Shown here piece after piece: positions 8,564 through 19,404 of a stretch of 33,613 nucleotides of DNA. Source of the DNA: Oscillibacter sp. (GTDB lineage Bacteria; Bacillota; Clostridia; Oscillospirales; Oscillospiraceae); contig JAAWLO010000017.1 of assembly GCA_022797935.1 (NCBI GenBank), positions 1 through 33,613 of the forward strand, in the 5' to 3' direction. The first letter of the stretch is position 1; each line of letters begins with the position of its first letter. Made by a program: the position numbers and the translations under genes. The notes under the pieces were generated by a model. That model saw only the letters and a program-made list of their open reading frames with translations, was not told where the DNA came from and did not search any database.

Positions 8564-10315
8564 ATGCAGAATGCCGGATTGGAAAGTCTCTCCGCCGTGC
8601 TGGCCCGGCAGTACGGCCAGGACCGGACCCGCCCCCGGCCATTGCCCACGGGGTTTCCCCGGCTGGACGCCCTTCTGGGCGGCGGTCTCAGCCCCGGCCT
8701 GACGGTGCTGGGCGGCAGTCCCGGCCTGGGGAAATCCACCTTTGCCCTCCAGCTGGCGGCGGGGGCGGCGGAGCGGGGGGTTCCGGTTTTGTATTTCTCC
8801 CTGGAGATGTCCGGCGCCCGTCTGGCCGCCAAGGCCCTCAGCCGCCGGATGTTCCTGGCAGGGCCTCCGCAGCGGGAGGGGATCACCGCCGCGCAGCTGT
8901 ACAACGGCGAGGCCCGGCCCACGGAGGAGGCCTGGCAGGCGGTGCGCCGGGGTCTGGAGCGGCTGTATGTCATAGACACGGTGCTTCCGGCGGCGGAAAT
9001 CGCCCGGACGGCGGGGGATTTTCGGGACCGGGGGGAAACGCCCCTGGTGATTGTGGATTACCTCCAGATTCTGCCCGCCCCCCGGGGGAGCAGTGAGAAG
9101 CAGCAGGTGGAAGAGAGTCTGAAGCAGCTCTCCCGGCTGGCCCACGGGGGATTTCCCGTCCTCCTCATCAGCTCCCTCAACCGCAGCAGCTACAACGGGT
9201 CCATGCAGCTGGACGCCTTCAAGGAGTCGGGCGGCATTGAGTACTCGGCGGATGTGCTGCTGGGCCTCCAGTTCTGCGCCTGCCGGGGCCGGGGCGGATG
9301 GGACCCCAACGCGGAGCGGAACAAATTCCCCCGGCAGGTGGAGATTGCCGTGCTGAAACAGCGCTACGGTCTCAGCGGCGGCACGGTGCGCTTCCGCTAC
9401 TACGCGGAGTTCGACTGCTTCCAGGAGACGGAGGAGGGCGATGCCGCCGGTCTGCCGGAGCGCCGGGGTCCCCTCTTCGTCATGAACAACACGAAGCTGT
9501 GCAACGAAATCCGGAGCGGCCGGGCCCCGGTGGGGGAAGCCGTCTCCTGCCGGGTTTTCGAGGAGACCGTCACCCGCTGCCGCCTCTCCGGGAGCCTCTC
9601 CCCCTTTGACTGTGACGTGGCCGACGCGGTGTACACGCTGCTTCTCCGGCGGCAAAAGTCCTTTTCGCCCGGGGACGTCCTCCGCGTCCTCTCCGGCGAC
9701 GCCCGGCAGACCATCACCCGGCAGAAACGGCAGGTCATCACGGCCAGCCTGGAGCGGCTGCGGAACGTGGAGATTGCGATTGACTGTACGGCGGAGATGC
9801 GGGCCCGGGGAAAGCTGGGCCTGGAGGAGACCCGGGAGCTCTCCGGTCCCTTCCTCTCCGCCGTGCCGGAGGAGGGACGCTATGTCTTCCCCAAGGACGT
9901 TCTGCCGCTGCCCCTCTACACCTACGGGGAGCTGACCACCCAGATGATTTCCTTTCCCCAGTGTCTTCTGGAGGTTCGGGCCGGGGGACGGCGGCTGTCC
10001 AACACGGAGGGAAACATCTGCCTCAAGCGCTATCTCATCCGCCGTCTGGAGGTCATCCGCAACCGCCGCTCCAAGGCGGGCCCGGCCATGCGGAGTCTTT
10101 CCTTTCAGGAGGGGAGCGGGCTGATGACGGCCCTGGGCTTTGCCGGCCGGAGCTATCAGACGGAGGCGGCCCGGGAGGCCCGGCGGAAGGCCCTGGCTAA
10201 AACCGCTATGGATGTTCTGGAGTATTACCGCCGCCTGGGCTATCTCACCGGCTTCACCCCCCGGTCGGACGGCGTCACCATCACCGGCGAGGTGCGGGAC
10301 CCCTGGCAGCTGTGA
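8564..10315 (+). CDS. DnaB-like RecA-fold ATPase fused to an initiator-like C-terminal region
   Basis: 583 residues. Residues 25-290 are the C-terminal ATPase domain of DnaB-type replicative helicases: GGSPGLGKST (Walker A, 50-59), YFSLEMSGARLAAKALS (77-93), LVIVDYLQIL (Walker B, 161-170), LISSLNRSSY (201-210) and KQRYGLSGG. The DnaB N-terminal domain is missing. Residues 305-583 are unlike DnaB: basic and helical, with SGDARQTITRQKRQVITASLER-type winged-helix character and LIRRLEVIRNRRSK, resembling Firmicute plasmid/ICE replication initiators of the RepA type. Such a fusion could load itself at an origin. It lies 32 bases after mtaD with a good GGAGGA site and ends at a shared terminator with the convergent operon. 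The initiator call is inference. Confidence 0.75.
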   Translation: MQNAGLESLSAVLARQYGQDRTRPRPLPTGFPRLDALLGGGLSPGLTVLGGSPGLGKSTFALQLAAGAAERGVPVLYFSLEMSGARLAAKALSRRMFLAGPPQREGITAAQLYNGEARPTEEAWQAVRRGLERLYVIDTVLPAAEIARTAGDFRDRGETPLVIVDYLQILPAPRGSSEKQQVEESLKQLSRLAHGGFPVLLISSLNRSSYNGSMQLDAFKESGGIEYSADVLLGLQFCACRGRGGWDPNAERNKFPRQVEIAVLKQRYGLSGGTVRFRYYAEFDCFQETEEGDAAGLPERRGPLFVMNNTKLCNEIRSGRAPVGEAVSCRVFEETVTRCRLSGSLSPFDCDVADAVYTLLLRRQKSFSPGDVLRVLSGDARQTITRQKRQVITASLERLRNVEIAIDCTAEMRARGKLGLEETRELSGPFLSAVPEEGRYVFPKDVLPLPLYTYGELTTQMISFPQCLLEVRAGGRRLSNTEGNICLKRYLIRRLEVIRNRRSKAGPAMRSLSFQEGSGLMTALGFAGRSYQTEAAREARRKALAKTAMDVLEYYRRLGYLTGFTPRSDGVTITGEVRDPWQL

Positions 10316-10317
10316 AC

Positions 10318-10368
10318 AGGAAAAAAAGAGGGCGGACTGAGGAGGAACATCTCCCAGTCCGCCCTTTT
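10318..10368. terminator. strong bidirectional terminator
   Basis: GGGCGGACTG (10330-10339) and CAGTCCGCCC (10355-10364) form a perfect 10-bp stem, extended inside by GGAG/CTCC pairing. TTTT follows on the plus strand and the A-run at 10321-10327 gives a T-run on the minus strand. It serves both the DnaB-like gene and the convergent operon ending at 10435. Confidence 0.92.
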
Positions 10369-10434
10369 GGCGCTGCTGCGGGGGCGTATGGCTCTGCGGA
10401 TTTTTTGAGGGAAGCGGATTGCCTCAAACAAGGC

Positions 10435-11721
10435 CTAGAACGCCAGCGGCTGGTCCCATTGCGGCGCGGTGTTCTCCTTCTGGGCCTCCGGGAGGAAGGC
10501 GTAGTCTTTGTGGGTGGTGAGGTCGAATTTCCGGACCTTCTGAGGCGGGGCTCCCCGGGTGAAGAGATAGGCCTCGTTCAGGGGGAGGTTCAGGATGGAA
10601 TCCGCCGTGCGGTTGGCCTTGACGCTGATGTACCGCGCGGTTTCCACATCCTGCCCGCCCAGGTAGAGGCAGTTGTCGCAGTTGTTGAGGATGGTCAGGG
10701 CTTTCTGATGGCCATAAAGGGCTTCCAGCTGGGAGATGCTTTGGAGGATGACGCTGACGGAGATCTCCCGGGAGCGGATGACGGAGATGATGTTGTCAAA
10801 GTCCGGGATGCAGGCGTTGGTGGCGAAGTCGTCCAGAATCAGGCGCACCGGCACGGGCAGGCGGTGATTCGGATAATCCTTGCCGGCGCTGGCGCAGAGG
10901 GACTGCAGCGCCTGGAGGTAGAAGAGGGCAGCCAGGCGGTCGGCGGAGCGGTCCGTGTCGCTGATGGTGAGGAAGACCGCCGTCTTCTCCCGGCCCAGAG
11001 ACGGAAAGTGCAGCTGGCTGGGCCGCTTGAAGAGGCGGAAGGGTCCTTCGAAGGTGAAGGGGTCCAGCTTTTCCGACAGGATGCCCCGGACGCTCTCGTG
11101 CATCTTCTCCGCCTGCTTGATGCCGGATATCATGCGGAATTTGCGGTAGGCAAAGCTCCGGGGGTTCTCCAGTCCCAGCTCCTCCAGCAGGCGCTCGAAA
11201 TTCCCGCTGGGCATCTCCCCGAAGAGCTCCGTGACCATTTCCAGGTTGTGTTCCTCCGGGGGCAGGCATTCCAGGACGTAGCCCACCAGTACCTCCATAT
11301 ACATCCGGGCCAGATACTCCCAGAAGGGTTGGGTGGCGTCCTCCACGGGAACCAGGGTGGCGCAGATGGAGAGGATGTCCTGCTCGGAGTACGTCTGCCG
11401 GACCGGGTCGTACCGGACGTAGGCCAGGGGATTGTAGCCGCAGTTCTCGGGACCCTCGGACGCCATATCCGTGAAATCCAGGTTCCAGACCCGGAAGCCC
11501 CGGCGGCGGAGGACGGCGGCGGTCTCCTGGAACAGGCTGCCCTTGGTGTCCGCAATGATGAGGCTCTCCTCGCTCTGGAGGAGGTTGGGCTTGACGTAGC
11601 TGCGGGTTTTTCCGGCGCCGCTGGGGCCAATGATGAGGTCGTTGTTGTTCAGGCCGGTGCGGCGGGTGTTGTTGCAGCGGAGATGGCCCTGGGCCAGGAT
11701 GCGGTAGGTGTCTTTGTTCAT
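10435..11721 (-). CDS. VirD4/TraG-like coupling ATPase lacking the membrane domain
   Basis: 428 residues. LIIGPSGAGKTRSYVKPNLL has Walker A at 32-39, then IIADTKGSLFQE (55-66). Walker B is LILDDFAT (294-301), followed by CIPDFDNIISVIRSREISVS and ILQSISQLEALYG, very close to type IV coupling proteins of Gram-positive conjugative elements. Those are usually near 600 residues with two N-terminal transmembrane helices; here the protein begins about 30 residues before Walker A and no helix is seen, so it should be soluble. Start ATG 11721. It is the last gene of a five-gene operon, 26 bases after the ClpP-like gene. No relaxase or secretion genes are nearby, so the substrate it might pump or bind is unknown. 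Confidence 0.85.
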   Translation of the reverse strand: MNKDTYRILAQGHLRCNNTRRTGLNNNDLIIGPSGAGKTRSYVKPNLLQSEESLIIADTKGSLFQETAAVLRRRGFRVWNLDFTDMASEGPENCGYNPLAYVRYDPVRQTYSEQDILSICATLVPVEDATQPFWEYLARMYMEVLVGYVLECLPPEEHNLEMVTELFGEMPSGNFERLLEELGLENPRSFAYRKFRMISGIKQAEKMHESVRGILSEKLDPFTFEGPFRLFKRPSQLHFPSLGREKTAVFLTISDTDRSADRLAALFYLQALQSLCASAGKDYPNHRLPVPVRLILDDFATNACIPDFDNIISVIRSREISVSVILQSISQLEALYGHQKALTILNNCDNCLYLGGQDVETARYISVKANRTADSILNLPLNEAYLFTRGAPPQKVRKFDLTTHKDYAFLPEAQKENTAPQWDQPLAF

Positions 11722-11747
11722 AGAGCGGTCCTTTCTGCCCGGGGGCG

Positions 11748-12329
11748 TCAGATGGTTTGGAGGATGCCGTCGGCCAGACCGAAGTCCACGGCCTCTTCGG
11801 CGGTGAAGAAGGTGTCCTGCTTGGTCCGCTGGCAGATGTCCTCCAGGGACTTGCCGGTGTGCTTGGCCAGGATGCCGCAGAGGCGTTCCCGGTTCTGAAG
11901 GAGGCGGCGGGCGGTTTCCTGAACCTGCAGAGCGCTGCCGCCGGGACCGCTGGAGAGGAGGGGGTCGTGGATCATGACCTCGCTGTGGGGCAGAAGCTCC
12001 CGGCGGGCTCCGGCGGAGAAGAGCACCGCTGCCATACTGGCCGCCTGGCCGACGCAGAGGGTGCGGATGGGACAGGAGAGGTTCTGCATCACGTCATACA
12101 GGGCCAGGCCGCTGAGGATCTCGCCGCCGGGGCTGTCGATGTACATCCGGATTTCCGCCTCCGGGTCCTGGCGCTGGAGGTGGCGCAGCTGGCGGATAAG
12201 GGACTGGACGCTGTCGTGGTCAATGGGGCCGAAGCACTCCACCTCCCGGTTTTTCAGCATCTCATCCCGGATGTCGCTGAGGAAGTCTCCGCTGCTGGTT
12301 TCCTTGAGAATTTTAGGCGTCGTGTCCAT
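11748..12329 (-). CDS. ClpP-like serine protease
   Basis: 193 residues of the ClpP/crotonase peptidase fold with a complete triad: Ser98 in GQAASMAAVLFSAG, His121 in PHSEVMIHDPL, Asp172 in TKQDTFFTAEEA. YIDSPGGEILSGLALYD (64-80) is the oxyanion region. It is diverged from housekeeping ClpP (MAA for MGA, HDPLL for HQPLG) and no Clp ATPase gene accompanies it. It may work as an element-encoded protease with a host unfoldase or its own partners. The start ATG 12329 follows AAAGGAAGA and overlaps the upstream gene by 17 bases; a longer reading begins inside that gene and is rejected. Confidence 0.88.
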   Translation of the reverse strand: MDTTPKILKETSSGDFLSDIRDEMLKNREVECFGPIDHDSVQSLIRQLRHLQRQDPEAEIRMYIDSPGGEILSGLALYDVMQNLSCPIRTLCVGQAASMAAVLFSAGARRELLPHSEVMIHDPLLSSGPGGSALQVQETARRLLQNRERLCGILAKHTGKSLEDICQRTKQDTFFTAEEAVDFGLADGILQTI

Positions 12330-14285: not shown

Positions 14286-14652
14286 AGTCTTAATTAAACT
14301 GATAGTCGTTTTTCTACCTCAATAAATCAACCGGGCCTAGCACCGCTAGGCCATTGGAAAGACTTTCAAAAAGTAGGGCCTGAGTAAAAAGTGAGAGTTT
14401 AAGTTAGCTATTCCTAAAAATTAAATTAAAAATAAGAAACATAGAAAAATCAAAAATATTAAAATTTAGCTGTAAAAATCATGCTTTTAGAAAACGGAAT
14501 GATTCTATTTTCTTATTAAAAATTTACTTTTCACGAATAGAAATTGAAATTCAAGAAAACCGGCTCTGAAACTCGCTCTGCCGGTTCGGGAAGACTCAGA
14601 AGAAAACACGAAAAACTTTCATCGGGCCGTGGACATCAGCGGCAGGCTGTGC
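14286..14652. other. AT-rich divergent control region
   Basis: This non-coding stretch lies between two divergent operons and differs sharply in composition from its surroundings: 22 G or C in the 120 bases 14401-14520 (18 percent), against GC-rich coding sequence on both sides. It contains two perfect inverted repeats: GGCCTAG/CTAGGCC (14334-14352, 5-base loop) and AACCGGC/GCCGGTT (about 14559-14587). A-tracts are frequent. The features fit a protein-binding or bent-DNA control region for both operons, or an origin-like site; neither can be told from sequence alone. Confidence 0.6.
14425..14453 (-). promoter_or_regulatory. possible promoter of the five-gene minus-strand operon
   Basis: Reading the minus strand, TTGATT (14448-14453), a 17-bp spacer and TTTAAT (14425-14430). 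The region is so AT-rich that several similar matches could be found, so this is tentative. Confidence 0.3.
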
Positions 14653-14658
14653 TATAAT
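14630..14658 (+). promoter_or_regulatory. sigma-A promoter of the helicase operon
   Basis: TGGACA (14630-14635), 17-bp spacer, perfect TATAAT (14653-14658). Expected start point about 25 bases before the helicase start codon. Confidence 0.75.
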
Positions 14659-14689
14659 AATAAAGACCCTTTTACATCATAACGAGAGG

Positions 14690-17600
14690 ATGATTTCCTT
14701 GGATATCCAAGCCCTATGGAAGTACTACACCTTAGCGGCGGCGCTTCAGGGACGGAAACGGCCTTCTGAAAAGACGCCCGTCCCCTCCGCTCTGGTACAG
14801 GCGAATTACTCTCTCCTCTGGTTCTTCGCCGAACAACAGGACCCAGGCGGTCTCAATGAATTGACCAGGGCGTTCCTGGGCAGCCCGAACACGGCGCTGT
14901 CCTGGGGGGAACCCCTGTCCGCGGACCAGCTGGACTCCTTTTGGCTGGAGGGCCTCCAGCCCAACGACAGCCAGCGCAGGGCCATTTACACGGCCTTCCG
15001 CAATTCGATTTCCTTCATTCAGGGGCCGCCGGGCACCGGAAAGACGGCCACCATCCTGAATCTGCTTTCCTGTATACTCCATATGGGGAAAAAGGCGGCT
15101 GTGGTTTCCAGCAACAATTCGGCCCTGAACAATATTCAGGATAAAATCAGCGGCTGGAAAGACCCTGCGCCCAATCAGCGCCTCCTTCAGGAGGCCTTTG
15201 TCCGCCTGGGGGGCAAGAGCTACCGGGACGGCTCGCCCAAGGAGGACCCGCCGGTCAGCTTCAACCAGACCCACCCGGACCTCCCTTCCTCCGAGCGGTT
15301 CCAGTGCGCCCGCCTGGACATCTCCAGGGAGGGGCTGGAATGGCTCCATTTTCTGGATGAGGAGCGGGCCGGGGAGTGGAGCCTCACCGTCAGCCGGGAG
15401 GGCCGCCTCACCGCCCAGTCTTTTTTAAACCGCTATCCCATCATTTCCAGCACCGTGCACTCCCTGAAAAACTGCTTTCAGGACGGCGGCACGTACCTTT
15501 ATGACTATGTCATCATGGACGAGTCCTCTCAGACCAACCTGGTTGCCGGCTTGACCGCCATGAGCTGTGCCCGGCATCTGGTATTGGTGGGGGACCAGGA
15601 ACAGCTGCCCCCGGTGGTCAACGCCGGCAGCGCCGGGGAGCTGGAGCTCTTCCGCCAGACGCTGAACCTGGACGTGCCGGAGCAGTACCGCGTTCGGGAG
15701 AACCGGAGCTTTCTGGACCTGTGCCGGGAGGTCTTCCCGGACCCGGCCCTGGATGTGTTCCTGGAGGAGCATTATCGCTGTCATCCCGCCATTATCGGCT
15801 TCTGCGCCCAGGAGATTTACGGAGGCCGCCTCCAGGTCCGCACCCCGGACGACGGCCGGATTCCCATCAAGGTCCTCTGGTTTGAGGGGGACTACTGTGA
15901 AAGCGCGCCGGTGGAAGGGGAGAAGGAGGGGGAGAAGGAGCGGGGGTATTCCAAGCAGAACCTGCGGCAGGCGGCCATTTTTCTGGAAGAGGAGTGGCCC
16001 CGCCTGCGGCAGCGGATGGAGCGGGAGAATTTGACGGCCTGCATCCTCACGCCCTTCCGGGGCCAGCGGGCAATCCTGCGGAAGGCCCTGCAGGAAGACG
16101 CCCCCAACCTGGAGATCAAACAGCTGGAGGCCCAGGGGGATGAGAATGTGATCCCCATGCTGTCCATTACGCCTCCGGTGCAGACCATTCACAAGGCCCA
16201 GGGGCAGGAATTTGATATTGTGTACCTCCTGCCGGTGGAGGACGCCGACTGGGAGTGGCCCTGGTCCCAGCACAGGCGGCTGATCAACGTGGCGGTATCC
16301 CGGGCGAAGCGGGAACTGCGGCTGATTCTCTCCACCGCCCTGATGGACGGGGACGTCCAGCGGGAGCTGACGGGCTATGCCGTCGCGCCCCGGTCAAATC
16401 CACGGCTCACCGGCCAGGAGCGGGCCCAGGGGAAGGAACAGGAACGCTATCTGAAAAAGCTCGTTGCCTACGCCAGGGACCGGCATGCCGCAGCCGGAAG
16501 CTATCCCGCCAGCAGCCACGACTTCGGCTTCCACCGGGCCCGGCGGCGCTCCATCTTTGACCGGGAACCCCTGGTCCGCCAGCTGCTGGGGAAGCAGGCG
16601 GACCTCTGGGCCCCGCAGCTCTGCGTGGAGGACGCGCTGGTCCAGGCCATCTGCACCCTGTGGAACGGGGAGGAGGCGATTTCCCTCCACGTGCTGACGG
16701 AGTGCCTGCTCCAGGACCTGCGGGACGGGGCGGGACAGCCTCCGGACCTGTCGGATGCCAGCGAGGAAATGCGGAGTCTGGTGGAAAACGGCGGGCACTT
16801 TGACTTCCTGGTCTGTTACGAGGGCCAGGTGCTGCTGGCGGTGGAGGCCGACGGGGCCTATCACCGGATGCGGGACGGCGGCCGGGACGCCGTTAAGAAC
16901 GATTTCGTCCGGGAGGTTCTCCACGGCGTCTGCTATGGGGAGGGCGGCGATTTGGACGGCGGCTCCTTCACCTTCCTCCGCCTGCCCGACAATGGCAGAA
17001 CTGTCCAGGAAACCGAACTGTTTCTGGATCTGCTCCGGCGGCGGATTCGGACGCTCTCCAGAGAGCCGGACCGGCCCCTTCCGGAGGGAGCCTGGTTCCT
17101 GCGGGGGAAGAGCCTGAGCGCCATTTTCCAGGAGCGGATGTTTTTCCCGGAGCTGGCCCGGCAGACGGCGGTCCGGCAGGCGGGTCAGCTGCTGACTGCG
17201 CAGGGCTGGATAACCGAACGGAACTACCATAAAGAGCTGTTTCCCTCCTTTGCCCAGAAAGCGGAGCAGAGAGAGGATTATGCCGCCAAAGCGCCCACGG
17301 AAAAGGGCTTCCGGTCCGGCATGTTTCTCTGCTATAACATCAGCAAGAAAGGGACGCCGTATGCCGTCATAGGCTACACGGAGAAAGGGGAGGCCATGCT
17401 CGCCCGGTTTCTGGAGAACGGGGGGAAACCTCCGGCGGCTTTCCAGGGGAACCCGCCCTCAAAGGGGAGTCCGGCGGAAGCCGCGCCTGGGGAGCAGGCC
17501 GTGGTCACGCGGAATACGGCGGTGCGGGACCTGCGGGGAGCCCTGCGGGCGGATATGCCCATTTGCGATCTGGTGTCCGCCATTTTCCTCCAGCTTCAGA

Positions 17601-18472
17601 GCCGCTTCGGCCCTGGGGACGGCGTCCGTCAGGGGCTGTTGGGCGTGGCCGCGTCCATGAACTTTCTGCGGACCGTGGACTATGACACGGAGGACTCTCA
17701 GGCCTACTACCTTCTGCGCTTCCTCTATGGCTACGCCTATGAGTACAAGTGTATGTACCGGGACCTGCTGGCGGCCTGGCGGCCCGGCGGGCCGGTACTC
17801 TCGGCTGTCTCCATTGGCTGCGGCAATCTGGTGGACTACTGGGGCCTCCGGGCAGCGCTGAACCAGGAGGGGCTGCGGGAGCTCCCGGTGGATTACACCG
17901 GCATTGATCTGGCGGACTGGTCGGAACGCCTGCGTATCCAGGCTTCCGCGGGAGACCAGGCCCGTTTTGTCTGCCAGAGCGCGGTGGACTACCTGCAGAA
18001 TCCGGAGAACGAGGCGGCGGAGCTCTATATCATCCCCAAGTCCATCAGCGACTTTGACGGGCAGGAGGCGGAAGACGGGCCGGTTCTGGACGGCATTCGG
18101 AAGGGCCTGACCAATACCCTGCGCCGGAACGGCAGGGAGACAGTCCATCTCCTCATCTCCCTGCGGCGGAAAGGGGAGCGGGAAATTTACCCCAACGACT
18201 GGGCCAAGTGCCTCTCTCTGGTGCGGGCCGTTCAGGCGGCGGGGTACGAGACCCCCCGGCCCCCCACGGAGGAGGGCTTCTTCTCCCAGGCGGAGGAGCG
18301 GATGTACATTCACCTCAAGGACGACAGCTTCTGTTTCCCCATGCACATCCACAGGCTGTTTACGGAGCTGAACAAGGATTATCCTGAGGAAGTCCGGATG
18401 CCGATGCTGAGCACCGGGCATCTGTGCTATCAGATTCTCTCATTCCGCCGGAAGGAGGGGGAAGCGCTATGA
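14690..18472 (+). CDS. SF1 helicase / PD-(D/E)XK-like nuclease / methyltransferase-like fusion
   Basis: 1,260 residues. Residues 85-560 form an Upf1/Dna2-like superfamily 1 helicase: GPPGTGKT (112-119), MDESSQ (276-281), VGDQEQLPP (300-308), HKAQGQEFDIVYL (501-513), NVAVSRAKREL (533-543). Residues about 615-790 resemble the DUF2726 nuclease domain, with FDF at 704-706, EAD at 719-721 and K736. Residues 1036-1160 look like a class I methyltransferase Rossmann fold: SIGCGNL (1041-1047) and D1068-YTGID-1073. The linker around 910-935 is Gly/Pro-rich. GAGAGG abuts the ATG at 14690, so an in-frame TTG at 14699, with nine-base spacing, may be the true start. Its stop overlaps the DUF1848 start (ATGA). 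Helicase-nuclease fusions are common in defence and repair; this use is inferred. Confidence 0.85.
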   Translation: MISLDIQALWKYYTLAAALQGRKRPSEKTPVPSALVQANYSLLWFFAEQQDPGGLNELTRAFLGSPNTALSWGEPLSADQLDSFWLEGLQPNDSQRRAIYTAFRNSISFIQGPPGTGKTATILNLLSCILHMGKKAAVVSSNNSALNNIQDKISGWKDPAPNQRLLQEAFVRLGGKSYRDGSPKEDPPVSFNQTHPDLPSSERFQCARLDISREGLEWLHFLDEERAGEWSLTVSREGRLTAQSFLNRYPIISSTVHSLKNCFQDGGTYLYDYVIMDESSQTNLVAGLTAMSCARHLVLVGDQEQLPPVVNAGSAGELELFRQTLNLDVPEQYRVRENRSFLDLCREVFPDPALDVFLEEHYRCHPAIIGFCAQEIYGGRLQVRTPDDGRIPIKVLWFEGDYCESAPVEGEKEGEKERGYSKQNLRQAAIFLEEEWPRLRQRMERENLTACILTPFRGQRAILRKALQEDAPNLEIKQLEAQGDENVIPMLSITPPVQTIHKAQGQEFDIVYLLPVEDADWEWPWSQHRRLINVAVSRAKRELRLILSTALMDGDVQRELTGYAVAPRSNPRLTGQERAQGKEQERYLKKLVAYARDRHAAAGSYPASSHDFGFHRARRRSIFDREPLVRQLLGKQADLWAPQLCVEDALVQAICTLWNGEEAISLHVLTECLLQDLRDGAGQPPDLSDASEEMRSLVENGGHFDFLVCYEGQVLLAVEADGAYHRMRDGGRDAVKNDFVREVLHGVCYGEGGDLDGGSFTFLRLPDNGRTVQETELFLDLLRRRIRTLSREPDRPLPEGAWFLRGKSLSAIFQERMFFPELARQTAVRQAGQLLTAQGWITERNYHKELFPSFAQKAEQREDYAAKAPTEKGFRSGMFLCYNISKKGTPYAVIGYTEKGEAMLARFLENGGKPPAAFQGNPPSKGSPAEAAPGEQAVVTRNTAVRDLRGALRADMPICDLVSAIFLQLQSRFGPGDGVRQGLLGVAASMNFLRTVDYDTEDSQAYYLLRFLYGYAYEYKCMYRDLLAAWRPGGPVLSAVSIGCGNLVDYWGLRAALNQEGLRELPVDYTGIDLADWSERLRIQASAGDQARFVCQSAVDYLQNPENEAAELYIIPKSISDFDGQEAEDGPVLDGIRKGLTNTLRRNGRETVHLLISLRRKGEREIYPNDWAKCLSLVRAVQAAGYETPRPPTEEGFFSQAEERMYIHLKDDSFCFPMHIHRLFTELNKDYPEEVRMPMLSTGHLCYQILSFRRKEGEAL

Positions 18473-19404
18473 TTCTCAGTGCCAGCCGCCGGACGGACCT
18501 GCCGAATTACTATGCGGAATGGTTTTTCAACCGCATCCGGGAGGGCTTTTTATACGTCCGCAATCCCATGAACGCCCACCAGATCAGCCGGGTGGACCTG
18601 TCGCCAGCGGTGGTGGACTGCATCGTCTTCTGGTCCAAGAACCCCGCGCCGCTCCTGCGCCGTCTGGACAGCCTGCGGGACTACATGTACTATATCCAGT
18701 TCACCCTGGAGGGCTACGGCAGGGATATAGAGCCCCATCTGCCGGATAAGAAGGCGGTGCTGATTCCGGCCTTTCAGGAGCTGTCCCGGCAGCTGGGACC
18801 CCGGCGGATGGTCTGGCGGTATGACCCGATTCTCTTCAATCCCCGCTACACGCCGGACTATCACCTGCGGGCCTTCGAGGAGATTGCCGGGCAGCTGGAG
18901 GGCTTTGCGGACCGGGCGGTCATCAGTTTCGTGGACCTCTACGCCAAGACCCGCCGGGGCACTGCCGGGCTGGATATCCGGGAGCCGGAGAAGGCGGAGC
19001 TGCTGGACTTCGCCGGGCAGCTGGCGGAGACGGCCCGGCGGCATGGCTTCACCCTGGAGTCCTGCGCGGAGGCCATAGACCTGGCCCCGGCGGGGGTGCG
19101 CCACGGCAGCTGCATTGACAAGGCCCTGATTGAGGAGCTTCTGGGCTGCCGTCTCAAGGTGTCCAGGGACAAGACCCAGCGGCCGGAGTGCGGCTGCTTT
19201 GAGAGCATAGACGCAGGCGCCTACAACACCTGCCGGAACGGCTGCAAGTACTGCTACGCCAACTTCAGTCCCCAGCAGGTGGAGCGGAACGCGGGACTCT
19301 ACGACCCGGAATCCCCCATCCTCTGCGGAACCCTGGGCCCGGAGGACGTGGTAACGGAGCGAAGGGTATCCTCCCTCAAGGAAACCCAGATCAGCCTCTT
19401 TTGA
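18469..19404 (+). CDS. DUF1848 family protein with C-terminal CxxxCxxC cluster
   Basis: 311 residues starting MILSASRRTDLPNYYAEWFFNRI, the hallmark start of DUF1848. IVFWSKNPAPLLRRLD (52-67), YYIQFTLEGYGRDIEPHLP (74-92) and RRMVWRYDPILFN (112-124) are further family-like pieces. The C-terminus has C241xC243 and C255xxxC259xxC262 (CRNGCKYCYANF), the spacing of a radical-SAM iron-sulfur site although at the wrong end of the protein. DUF1848 proteins are often annotated as DNA-repair photolyase-like, without proof. GGAGGGG precedes the ATG, which overlaps the helicase stop by four bases, so the two are made together and may act on the same DNA or RNA substrate. Confidence 0.87.
   Translation: MILSASRRTDLPNYYAEWFFNRIREGFLYVRNPMNAHQISRVDLSPAVVDCIVFWSKNPAPLLRRLDSLRDYMYYIQFTLEGYGRDIEPHLPDKKAVLIPAFQELSRQLGPRRMVWRYDPILFNPRYTPDYHLRAFEEIAGQLEGFADRAVISFVDLYAKTRRGTAGLDIREPEKAELLDFAGQLAETARRHGFTLESCAEAIDLAPAGVRHGSCIDKALIEELLGCRLKVSRDKTQRPECGCFESIDAGAYNTCRNGCKYCYANFSPQQVERNAGLYDPESPILCGTLGPEDVVTERRVSSLKETQISLF

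Follow-up and report, generated by a model that had tools for sequence, protein, structure and literature searches.

The locus described here raises the question why one bacterial gene should carry a helicase, a nuclease and a methyltransferase-like domain in a single chain, and what connects it to the DUF1848 gene that directly follows. Both genes lie on contig JAAWLO010000017.1 of Oscillibacter sp. (assembly GCA_022797935.1), of which the whole stretch analysed, positions 1 to 33,613 (33,613 nucleotides), is referred to as the window. The best supported reading is that a helicase-nuclease has been fused to the exchangeable methyltransferase-like (MT) partner of DUF1848, and acts on DNA together with DUF1848 where the latter is present. 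We give about an even chance to the wider proposal that the window pair represents the fused form of a small exchangeable DNA-processing module, most likely serving defence-type control of foreign or modified DNA. Loci and genomes used for comparison carry our L and G numbers, and the elements of the pair are the following, with the evidence in brackets:

14690..18472, plus strand: fused gene, 1260 amino acids, superfamily 1 (SF1) helicase, PD-(D/E)XK nuclease and MT-like domain (open reading frame, ORF)
14942..16369, plus strand: helicase core, residues 85-560 (Pfam AAA_11/AAA_12, aligned motifs)
15023-15046, plus strand: Walker A GPPGTGKT with K118 (motif)
16607..17014, plus strand: PD-(D/E)XK nuclease region, residues 640-775 (DUF2726 match below cut-off, residues, model)
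16844-16846, plus strand: E719 of the nuclease (alignment)
17678..18451, plus strand: C-terminal MT-like domain, residues 997-1254 (stand-alone homologues, model, Foldseek)
17810-17824, plus strand: SIGCG motif (sequence)
17894-17908, plus strand: YTGID motif (sequence)
18469..19404, plus strand: DUF1848 gene, 311 amino acids, its start overlapping the stop of the fused gene (PF08902, 8.8e-102)
19231..19254, plus strand: CxxxCxxC of DUF1848, C255, C259 and C262 (alignment of 18 sequences)

All three parts that the original prediction had placed in the 1,260-residue protein, i.e. a helicase, a nuclease region and a C-terminal domain of Rossmann or methyltransferase type, were recovered by a combination of Pfam, residue alignment and structure modelling, and the predicted overlap of its stop with the start of DUF1848 was also found, the two genes lying on the same strand and sharing the sequence ATGA. 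An alternative GTG start for DUF1848 at 18424 is less likely than the ATG at 18469, since homologues begin at ATG. Genome searches identified a single copy of each gene in this genome, the only DUF1848 gene being the one in the window.

The helicase part matches AAA_11 (7.8e-26) and AAA_12 (1.5e-15), and K118 is present in seven of eight aligned helicase-nucleases, the ORF of the remaining one (L028) lacking that part of the protein. The isolated nuclease region matches the Pfam family DUF2726 at 17.4 bits, below the cut-off of 24.7 (E 0.0037), with a score of 65.6 for its relative L044; PMC3710099 describes DUF2726 as a DNase of the REase fold. Residues D705, E719, G722, H725, R732, D733 and K736 are invariant in all eight proteins, H703 is present in seven (S in L026) and D721 in seven (N in L028), which settles in its favour the conservation of nuclease residues that the original prediction had set as a test. 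In the AlphaFold2 model this region has a helix-strand pattern of low to moderate confidence. L044, L025, L026, L027 and L028 are unfused SF1 helicase-DUF2726 proteins of 590-925 residues as read, 31-34% identical to the window protein in the helicase and 21-26% in the nuclease, with the same catalytic residues except for H703 (L026) and D721 (L028); unlike the window protein they lack an MT-like domain, none being detected at E up to 10. In a genome of the same genus (G033) both halves occur unfused on separate contigs, as a helicase-DUF2726 protein without MT (L044:1937-5946) and as an MT-DUF1848 pair (L039). The accessible part of the DUF2726 literature contains nothing on a fusion of a helicase-nuclease with a methyltransferase.

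For the C-terminal part, residues 573-1260 were modelled with AlphaFold2 from an alignment of six rows, giving a mean predicted local distance difference test score (pLDDT) of 61, with block means of 64-92 across residues about 953-1192. A Foldseek search of the PDB returned 71 matches at E <= 1e-3, and the 50 listed are mostly class I S-adenosylmethionine (SAM) methyltransferases together with six GRAS entries, which have the same fold; the template modelling score (TM) by target was at most 0.48, the query being the whole 688-residue model. The SIGCGNL motif begins at residue 1041 and the YTGID motif at residue 1069, both within the fairly confident part of the model. With Pfam, the C-terminal 309 residues alone matched no family up to E 10, and the stand-alone relatives of this domain gave only methyltransferase matches below cut-off. 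Structure prediction and fold search, the check that had been proposed, support a class I SAM methyltransferase fold for the modelled domain, which may carry out methyl transfer.

Three relatives have the same three-part order: L022 (45% identical across 1157 aligned residues), L023 (44% across 1159) and L126 (1,159 residues, 37% identical across 946 aligned residues). L022 and L023 come from a scan of genome contigs that detects close relatives only, and L126 was found by searching the genus to which L023's genome belongs with a profile. As these three share the architecture, it is not a product of chance. Searches of 59 other related genomes, including 36 same-genus ones, found no full-length copy, and the partial matches seen in 14 of the 59 all fall within the helicase part or immediately follow it; DUF1848 was present in seven of 60 related genomes, the genome of the window included. 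The existence of diverged full-length relatives, yet no copy in these 59 genomes, indicates that the fused protein is real, old and sporadic. The gene pair is accessory, and the possibility of a universal housekeeping locus, which would have undone the original prediction, is ruled out by the same counts for the 36 same-genus genomes and for DUF1848. No sign was obtained that the pair had been inserted at a conserved site: six same-genus stretches matched the window only in its GluQ- and GltX-like genes.

The original prediction coupled the helicase gene with DUF1848. This coupling is real and was seen again beyond the present genome; what did not hold is its assignment to the helicase, since stand-alone forms of the C-terminal domain adjoin DUF1848 directly, and only two of four fusions have the pair. 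We thus reject a helicase-DUF1848 unit as the core, which consists of MT and DUF1848. A tblastn search of phage records with the whole protein gave five matches, and in L024 only the C-terminal part was reported: this locus encodes a stand-alone MT relative of 284 residues with DUF1848 directly after it without a gap, beside a tyrosine recombinase-like gene identified by eye. No relative was returned by viral-contig scans that used the fused protein, the full alignment or the L024 MT by itself, and a tblastn search with the L024 MT had no match among plasmids and, among phages, matched only its own sequence. The stand-alone MT relatives are about 300 amino acids long and mostly located directly 5' of DUF1848, from an overlap of a few bases to 37 bp apart, an order also present in L039, L040, L046, L083, L084, L088, L091, L092, L099, L102, L103, L105, L107, L127, L128 and L129 (L100 and L101 are near-copies of L099). 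The case of L110, with a gap of 64 bp, is weak, and MT remnants are found 5' of DUF1848 in L070 and L072 (L089 and L090 denote the same two places). For viral-contig loci found with DUF1848, an MT match lies 5' of it in 9/22.

To avoid the bias of searching with DUF1848 first, profile searches were also led by MT, in overlapping sets of 398, 394, 42 and 300 genomes. MT was found in 13 genomes, with DUF1848 adjacent in nine of these (G000, G237, G039, G538, G765, G851, G1037, G1062 and G1068, the last two being near-copies). In G211 it lies about 35 kb off, and it is not adjacent in G477 (a short fragment) or in the genomes of two fusions discussed below. In L126, DUF1848 lies about 117 bp upstream of the fused gene, opposite to its position in the window. 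From the stand-alone MT genes 5' of DUF1848 and this reverse-order fusion, it follows that the window gene joins a DUF2726-type helicase-nuclease to the operon partner of DUF1848. The same data bear on the explanation that a helicase-nuclease of the ordinary kind, its MT-like tail degenerate, simply happens to lie 5' of a widespread DUF1848 gene. DUF1848 is indeed common, being present in 126 of the 398 genomes of the phylum sample (about a third; MT in 3/398 with a narrower profile), and 26 of 30 loci taken from among the best for DUF1848 have no MT match (among the 30, L047 has only about 200 bases upstream), with two of the other four being remnants. Set against this are the adjacency in nine of 13 MT-bearing genomes, another fusion in which DUF1848 comes first, and the fact that the sole DUF1848 gene found in this genome adjoins the fused gene; because the adjacency recurs, chance neighbourhood is very improbable.

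Two variants of the arrangement were seen. L107:4569-5999 encodes an MT-like protein with about 185 extra N-terminal residues, followed by DUF1848. At L055:2310-3254 and L059:1979-2875, in two genomes of one family, similar proteins of about 300 residues without a Pfam match are encoded directly 5' of DUF1848, and these are possibly a further type of DUF1848 partner.

The window protein groups with L024 (99/94) in a 67-row DUF1848 tree, and both are located within a set of 18 rows (98/97), 12 of which are MT-paired; the partner of L024 is a stand-alone MT belonging to the same subfamily as the MT-like domain of the window. In another tree the window groups with L126 and L024 (93/93). By supported branches MT pairing has changed at least eight times, and it is clustered on the tree (0/500 shuffles as low), a result that near-copies among the 67 rows favour; L104 was labelled unpaired for want of upstream sequence, and L070 and L072 paired for their remnants. 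The MT proteins fall into two subfamilies (split 100/100), the first with the fusions and L024, L099, L126, L127 and L128, the other with mostly cysteine-rich stand-alone forms. The path between window and L024 is 0.77 for DUF1848 versus 3.11 for MT (1.02 versus 2.73 in later trees), and the DUF1848 proteins of L039 (4855-6686) and L098 (2001-3839) are 93% identical across 312 residues, with MT neighbours of different subfamilies (the L098 MT is split into two reading frames, and its second piece alone was compared). Near-identical DUF1848 proteins next to differing MT proteins, together with the longer MT paths, therefore suggest a conserved enzyme with a faster-changing, exchangeable partner. 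As to a single origin of the fusion, the three fusions form one group (95/93) in the MT tree when L126 is left out, and with L126 included such a grouping was present in 20% of bootstraps.

The DUF1848 protein matches PF08902 over its full profile (1-262 of 262, 340.8 bits with a cut-off of 30.5, 8.8e-102), and its model is barrel-like with a mean pLDDT of 91.5. The CxxxCxxC cluster noted in the original prediction is present, with YCYA-like residues after it; it does not end the protein, as had been stated, but occupies residues 255-262 of 311 as one part of seven cysteines that are invariant in the alignment of 18 sequences (C199, C215, C241, C243, C255, C259 and C262). The PA0069-family radical SAM model matches at E 0.0042, below its cut-off, and the 50 matches listed from a Foldseek search with the DUF1848 model are assorted, with many TIM barrels, a few radical-SAM chains and a TM of at most 0.37. 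We infer that DUF1848 is a radical-SAM-like permuted barrel, and an iron-sulfur (Fe-S) enzyme that acts on nucleic acid. A literature search on DUF1848/PF08902, with most subscription journals outside its reach, found no paper, the papers examined on radical SAM enzymes and defence mention neither DUF1848 nor alkylation in their main text, and none was found that joins type III CRISPR with a methyltransferase, an accessory role and radical SAM.

Defence is the likelier role of the module because of the neighbours of the stand-alone pair. Using Pfam, we identified HsdR directly 5' of the pair in L105, HsdM and HsdS 5' of it in L103, Vsr, a C5 methylase and Eco29kI 5' of it in L128, and RAMP and Cmr2/Cas10 genes 3' of it in L046, while Csm1/Cas10 and Cas1 are present in L089 and L090, which have MT remnants. 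As records of phages and viruses are mobile by definition, a contrast was limited to genome-derived loci, comparing 12 paired loci (five from the family of the window) with 20 unpaired ones, hand-picked one per family and mostly on long contigs. A recombinase, transposase, restriction or CRISPR gene was found within 5 kb in 7/12 paired versus 0/20 unpaired loci (one-sided Fisher 0.0002), with three of the seven positive loci matching only their own seed proteins; as the seeds came partly from paired loci, the unpaired loci may hide restriction or CRISPR genes. With seeds from other loci only, the contrast was 4/12 versus 0/20 (one-sided Fisher 0.014). The recurrence beside phage or defence genes for which the original prediction proposed to look is thus found for stand-alone MT-DUF1848 pairs, and was not recognised for the fusions in the window, L022 and L023.

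Because of the neighbours of some DUF1848 genes that stand alone, the main rival is repair of DNA damage, in which DUF1848 would mend or sense alkylated bases with the MT-like domain as its SAM-binding partner, the fused helicase-nuclease would excise damaged DNA, and mobile elements would carry the genes for fitness. DUF1848 genes without MT were found by Pfam beside AlkD (L036, L060), HhH-GPD (L054), Ogt (L061) and Ada-AlkA-Ogt (L106), a Planktothrix plasmid has an annotated AlkB gene near DUF1848 on the opposite strand, and the CxxxCxxC with YCYA-like residues resembles radical-SAM motifs, albeit below cut-off; alkylated bases are a candidate substrate of DUF1848 because repair genes adjoin some of its genes. 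However, a repair seed match within 5 kb was found in none of the 12 paired genome loci, and in three of the 20 unpaired loci (none in the other 17), of which L133 and L137 are themselves seed sources and the 'Ada' match of L132 is doubtful, probably sharing a helix-turn-helix only. Some paired loci lie beside restriction, CRISPR or recombinase genes, and the fast divergence and exchange of the MT partner would be odd for repair, which we consider possible, if on the unlikely side. Defence and repair could both be true if DUF1848 shields the host from the action of MT.

Three further neighbourhoods are recorded here as observations. In L046 (4247-9670) the MT-DUF1848 pair lies between a CRISPR-looking repeat array and the Cmr-type genes. 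L087-L091, from one genome family, contain intact and decayed DUF1848/MT copies, several of them near CRISPR-looking repeats and cas genes. In a Roseburia plasmid (L095:3322-9886) DUF1848 comes after annotated protein-ADP-ribose hydrolase and Sir2 genes, with an ARMT1-like gene further on. Four of the six plasmid matches to DUF1848 were examined (H32-H35, with genes listed for the annotated ones), as were four of the eight phage records (L024, L028, L092 and L093).

With the architecture, its conservation, the MT fold of the model and the recurring DUF1848 adjacency as observed, a defence-type module has several points weighing against it. Two of the four fusions do not have DUF1848 adjacent: in G455 (L023) it is on another contig, and in the 2.5 Mb assembly of G454 (L022) none was found. 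No defence or mobile gene was recognised within 5 kb in the window (by Pfam on 20 further ORFs and by seed matches) or, by eye, beside L022 and L023, and there was no defence or mobile seed match within 5 kb in five of the 12 paired loci (window, L039, L084, L091 and L129); moreover, five of the 12 are from one family. For DUF1848, the radical SAM family PF04055 reaches 12.9 bits with a cut-off of 29.5, and when the cysteine part was moved to the front of three proteins the match improved in one only, E changing from 0.13 to 0.033 for the window and from 0.068 to 1.2 for L099, with no match either way for L116. Finally, (D/N/S)PP(Y/F) is the motif of nucleobase amino-methyltransferases, and by eye this is absent from the expected place in the MT-like domain, where PKSIS(D/E)F or similar is found instead.

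The last point also concerns single-chain restriction-modification in the manner of type ISP, where the MT-like domain and DUF1848 would mark self DNA and the helicase-nuclease would cut unmarked DNA. Helicase, nuclease and MT fold are indeed present in one chain, and restriction systems lie beside some stand-alone pairs. By Pfam, however, the fused protein has no target-recognition domain and the stand-alone MT and DUF1848 proteins scanned have no nuclease domain, and (D/N/S)PP(Y/F) was not seen; we regard this explanation as improbable.

In the module as we propose it, consisting of the MT-like part and DUF1848 and here joined through MT to the end of an SF1 helicase-nuclease of the DUF2726 type, DUF1848 would act on nucleic acid as an Fe-S, radical-SAM-like enzyme that makes, removes or tolerates a modification, the fast-diverging MT-like part would bind SAM and supply the target or the mark, and the helicase-nuclease would unwind and cut the DNA so chosen. 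A more specific version, which is doubtful, is an immune module in which MT attaches a harmful or marking alkyl group to DNA or RNA, DUF1848 is the dedicated Fe-S enzyme by which the host removes or tolerates this group, and any DNA still marked is destroyed by the fused helicase-nuclease, i.e. a toxin-and-repair pair with quickly changing MT proteins on one conserved DUF1848. DUF1848, a domain of so far unassigned function, gains a partner and a context from these data, and the fact that this partner can be fused to a helicase-nuclease suggests DNA as its site of action; were the module immune, it would add unusual chemistry to bacterial defence.

Other features of the window include the region preceding the gene pair, with a GC content of 0.47 in 14401-15000, compared to 0.53 preceding and 0.60 following it and mostly 0.60-0.70 elsewhere:

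14400..14689, no strand assigned: AT-rich leader preceding the gene pair (GC profile, sequence reading)

The region 8564-11898 contains a gene for a DnaB-like ATPase and, after it, one for a 528-residue protein without a Pfam or NCBIfam match; in a genus search, in-frame stops were present in 17 of the 22 matching places listed, one of which is a second place in the same genome (contig C115). At 2633-2733, ARAGORN predicts a tRNA-Gly (tcc) that is unusually long at 101 bases.

Finally, we compared the pair with known systems. The PADLOC model C3a159 ('methyl transferase'), a label which we take to mean a type III CRISPR accessory, is matched by the stand-alone MT proteins of L045 (3.5e-61), L040 (1.3e-18), L046 (4.4e-16) and L039 (3.6e-11); unlike these, the window domain, which is fused, and L024 have no C3a159 match, and L022 only one at E 0.05. 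CRISPR or cas genes, expected next to a type III CRISPR accessory, were not found beside the window pair: Pfam returned no cas family for the window ORFs scanned, and there was no seed match within 5 kb. The window DUF1848 matches the PADLOC model RTasDUF1848, filed under DRT (9.9e-47), but unlike DRT the window has no reverse transcriptase family by Pfam in 20 further ORFs, and membership is rejected. The helicase core matches MkoA (5.2e-38) of the PADLOC entry Mko, presumably Mokosh; only residues 93-554 match, to MkoA positions 618-1081 of 1112, with the nuclease, the MT-like domain and DUF1848 outside the match, and membership of Mokosh is likewise rejected. The amino-methyltransferase motif (D/N/S)PP(Y/F) of type I and ISP restriction enzymes, looked for by eye, is absent, and membership of type ISP is rejected. 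Spore photoproduct lyase and related radical-SAM enzymes, to which we assume DUF1848 to be akin, differ from it in that its cluster is toward the C-terminal end and its scores are below cut-offs, and share with it CxxxCxxC and the YCYA-like residues.

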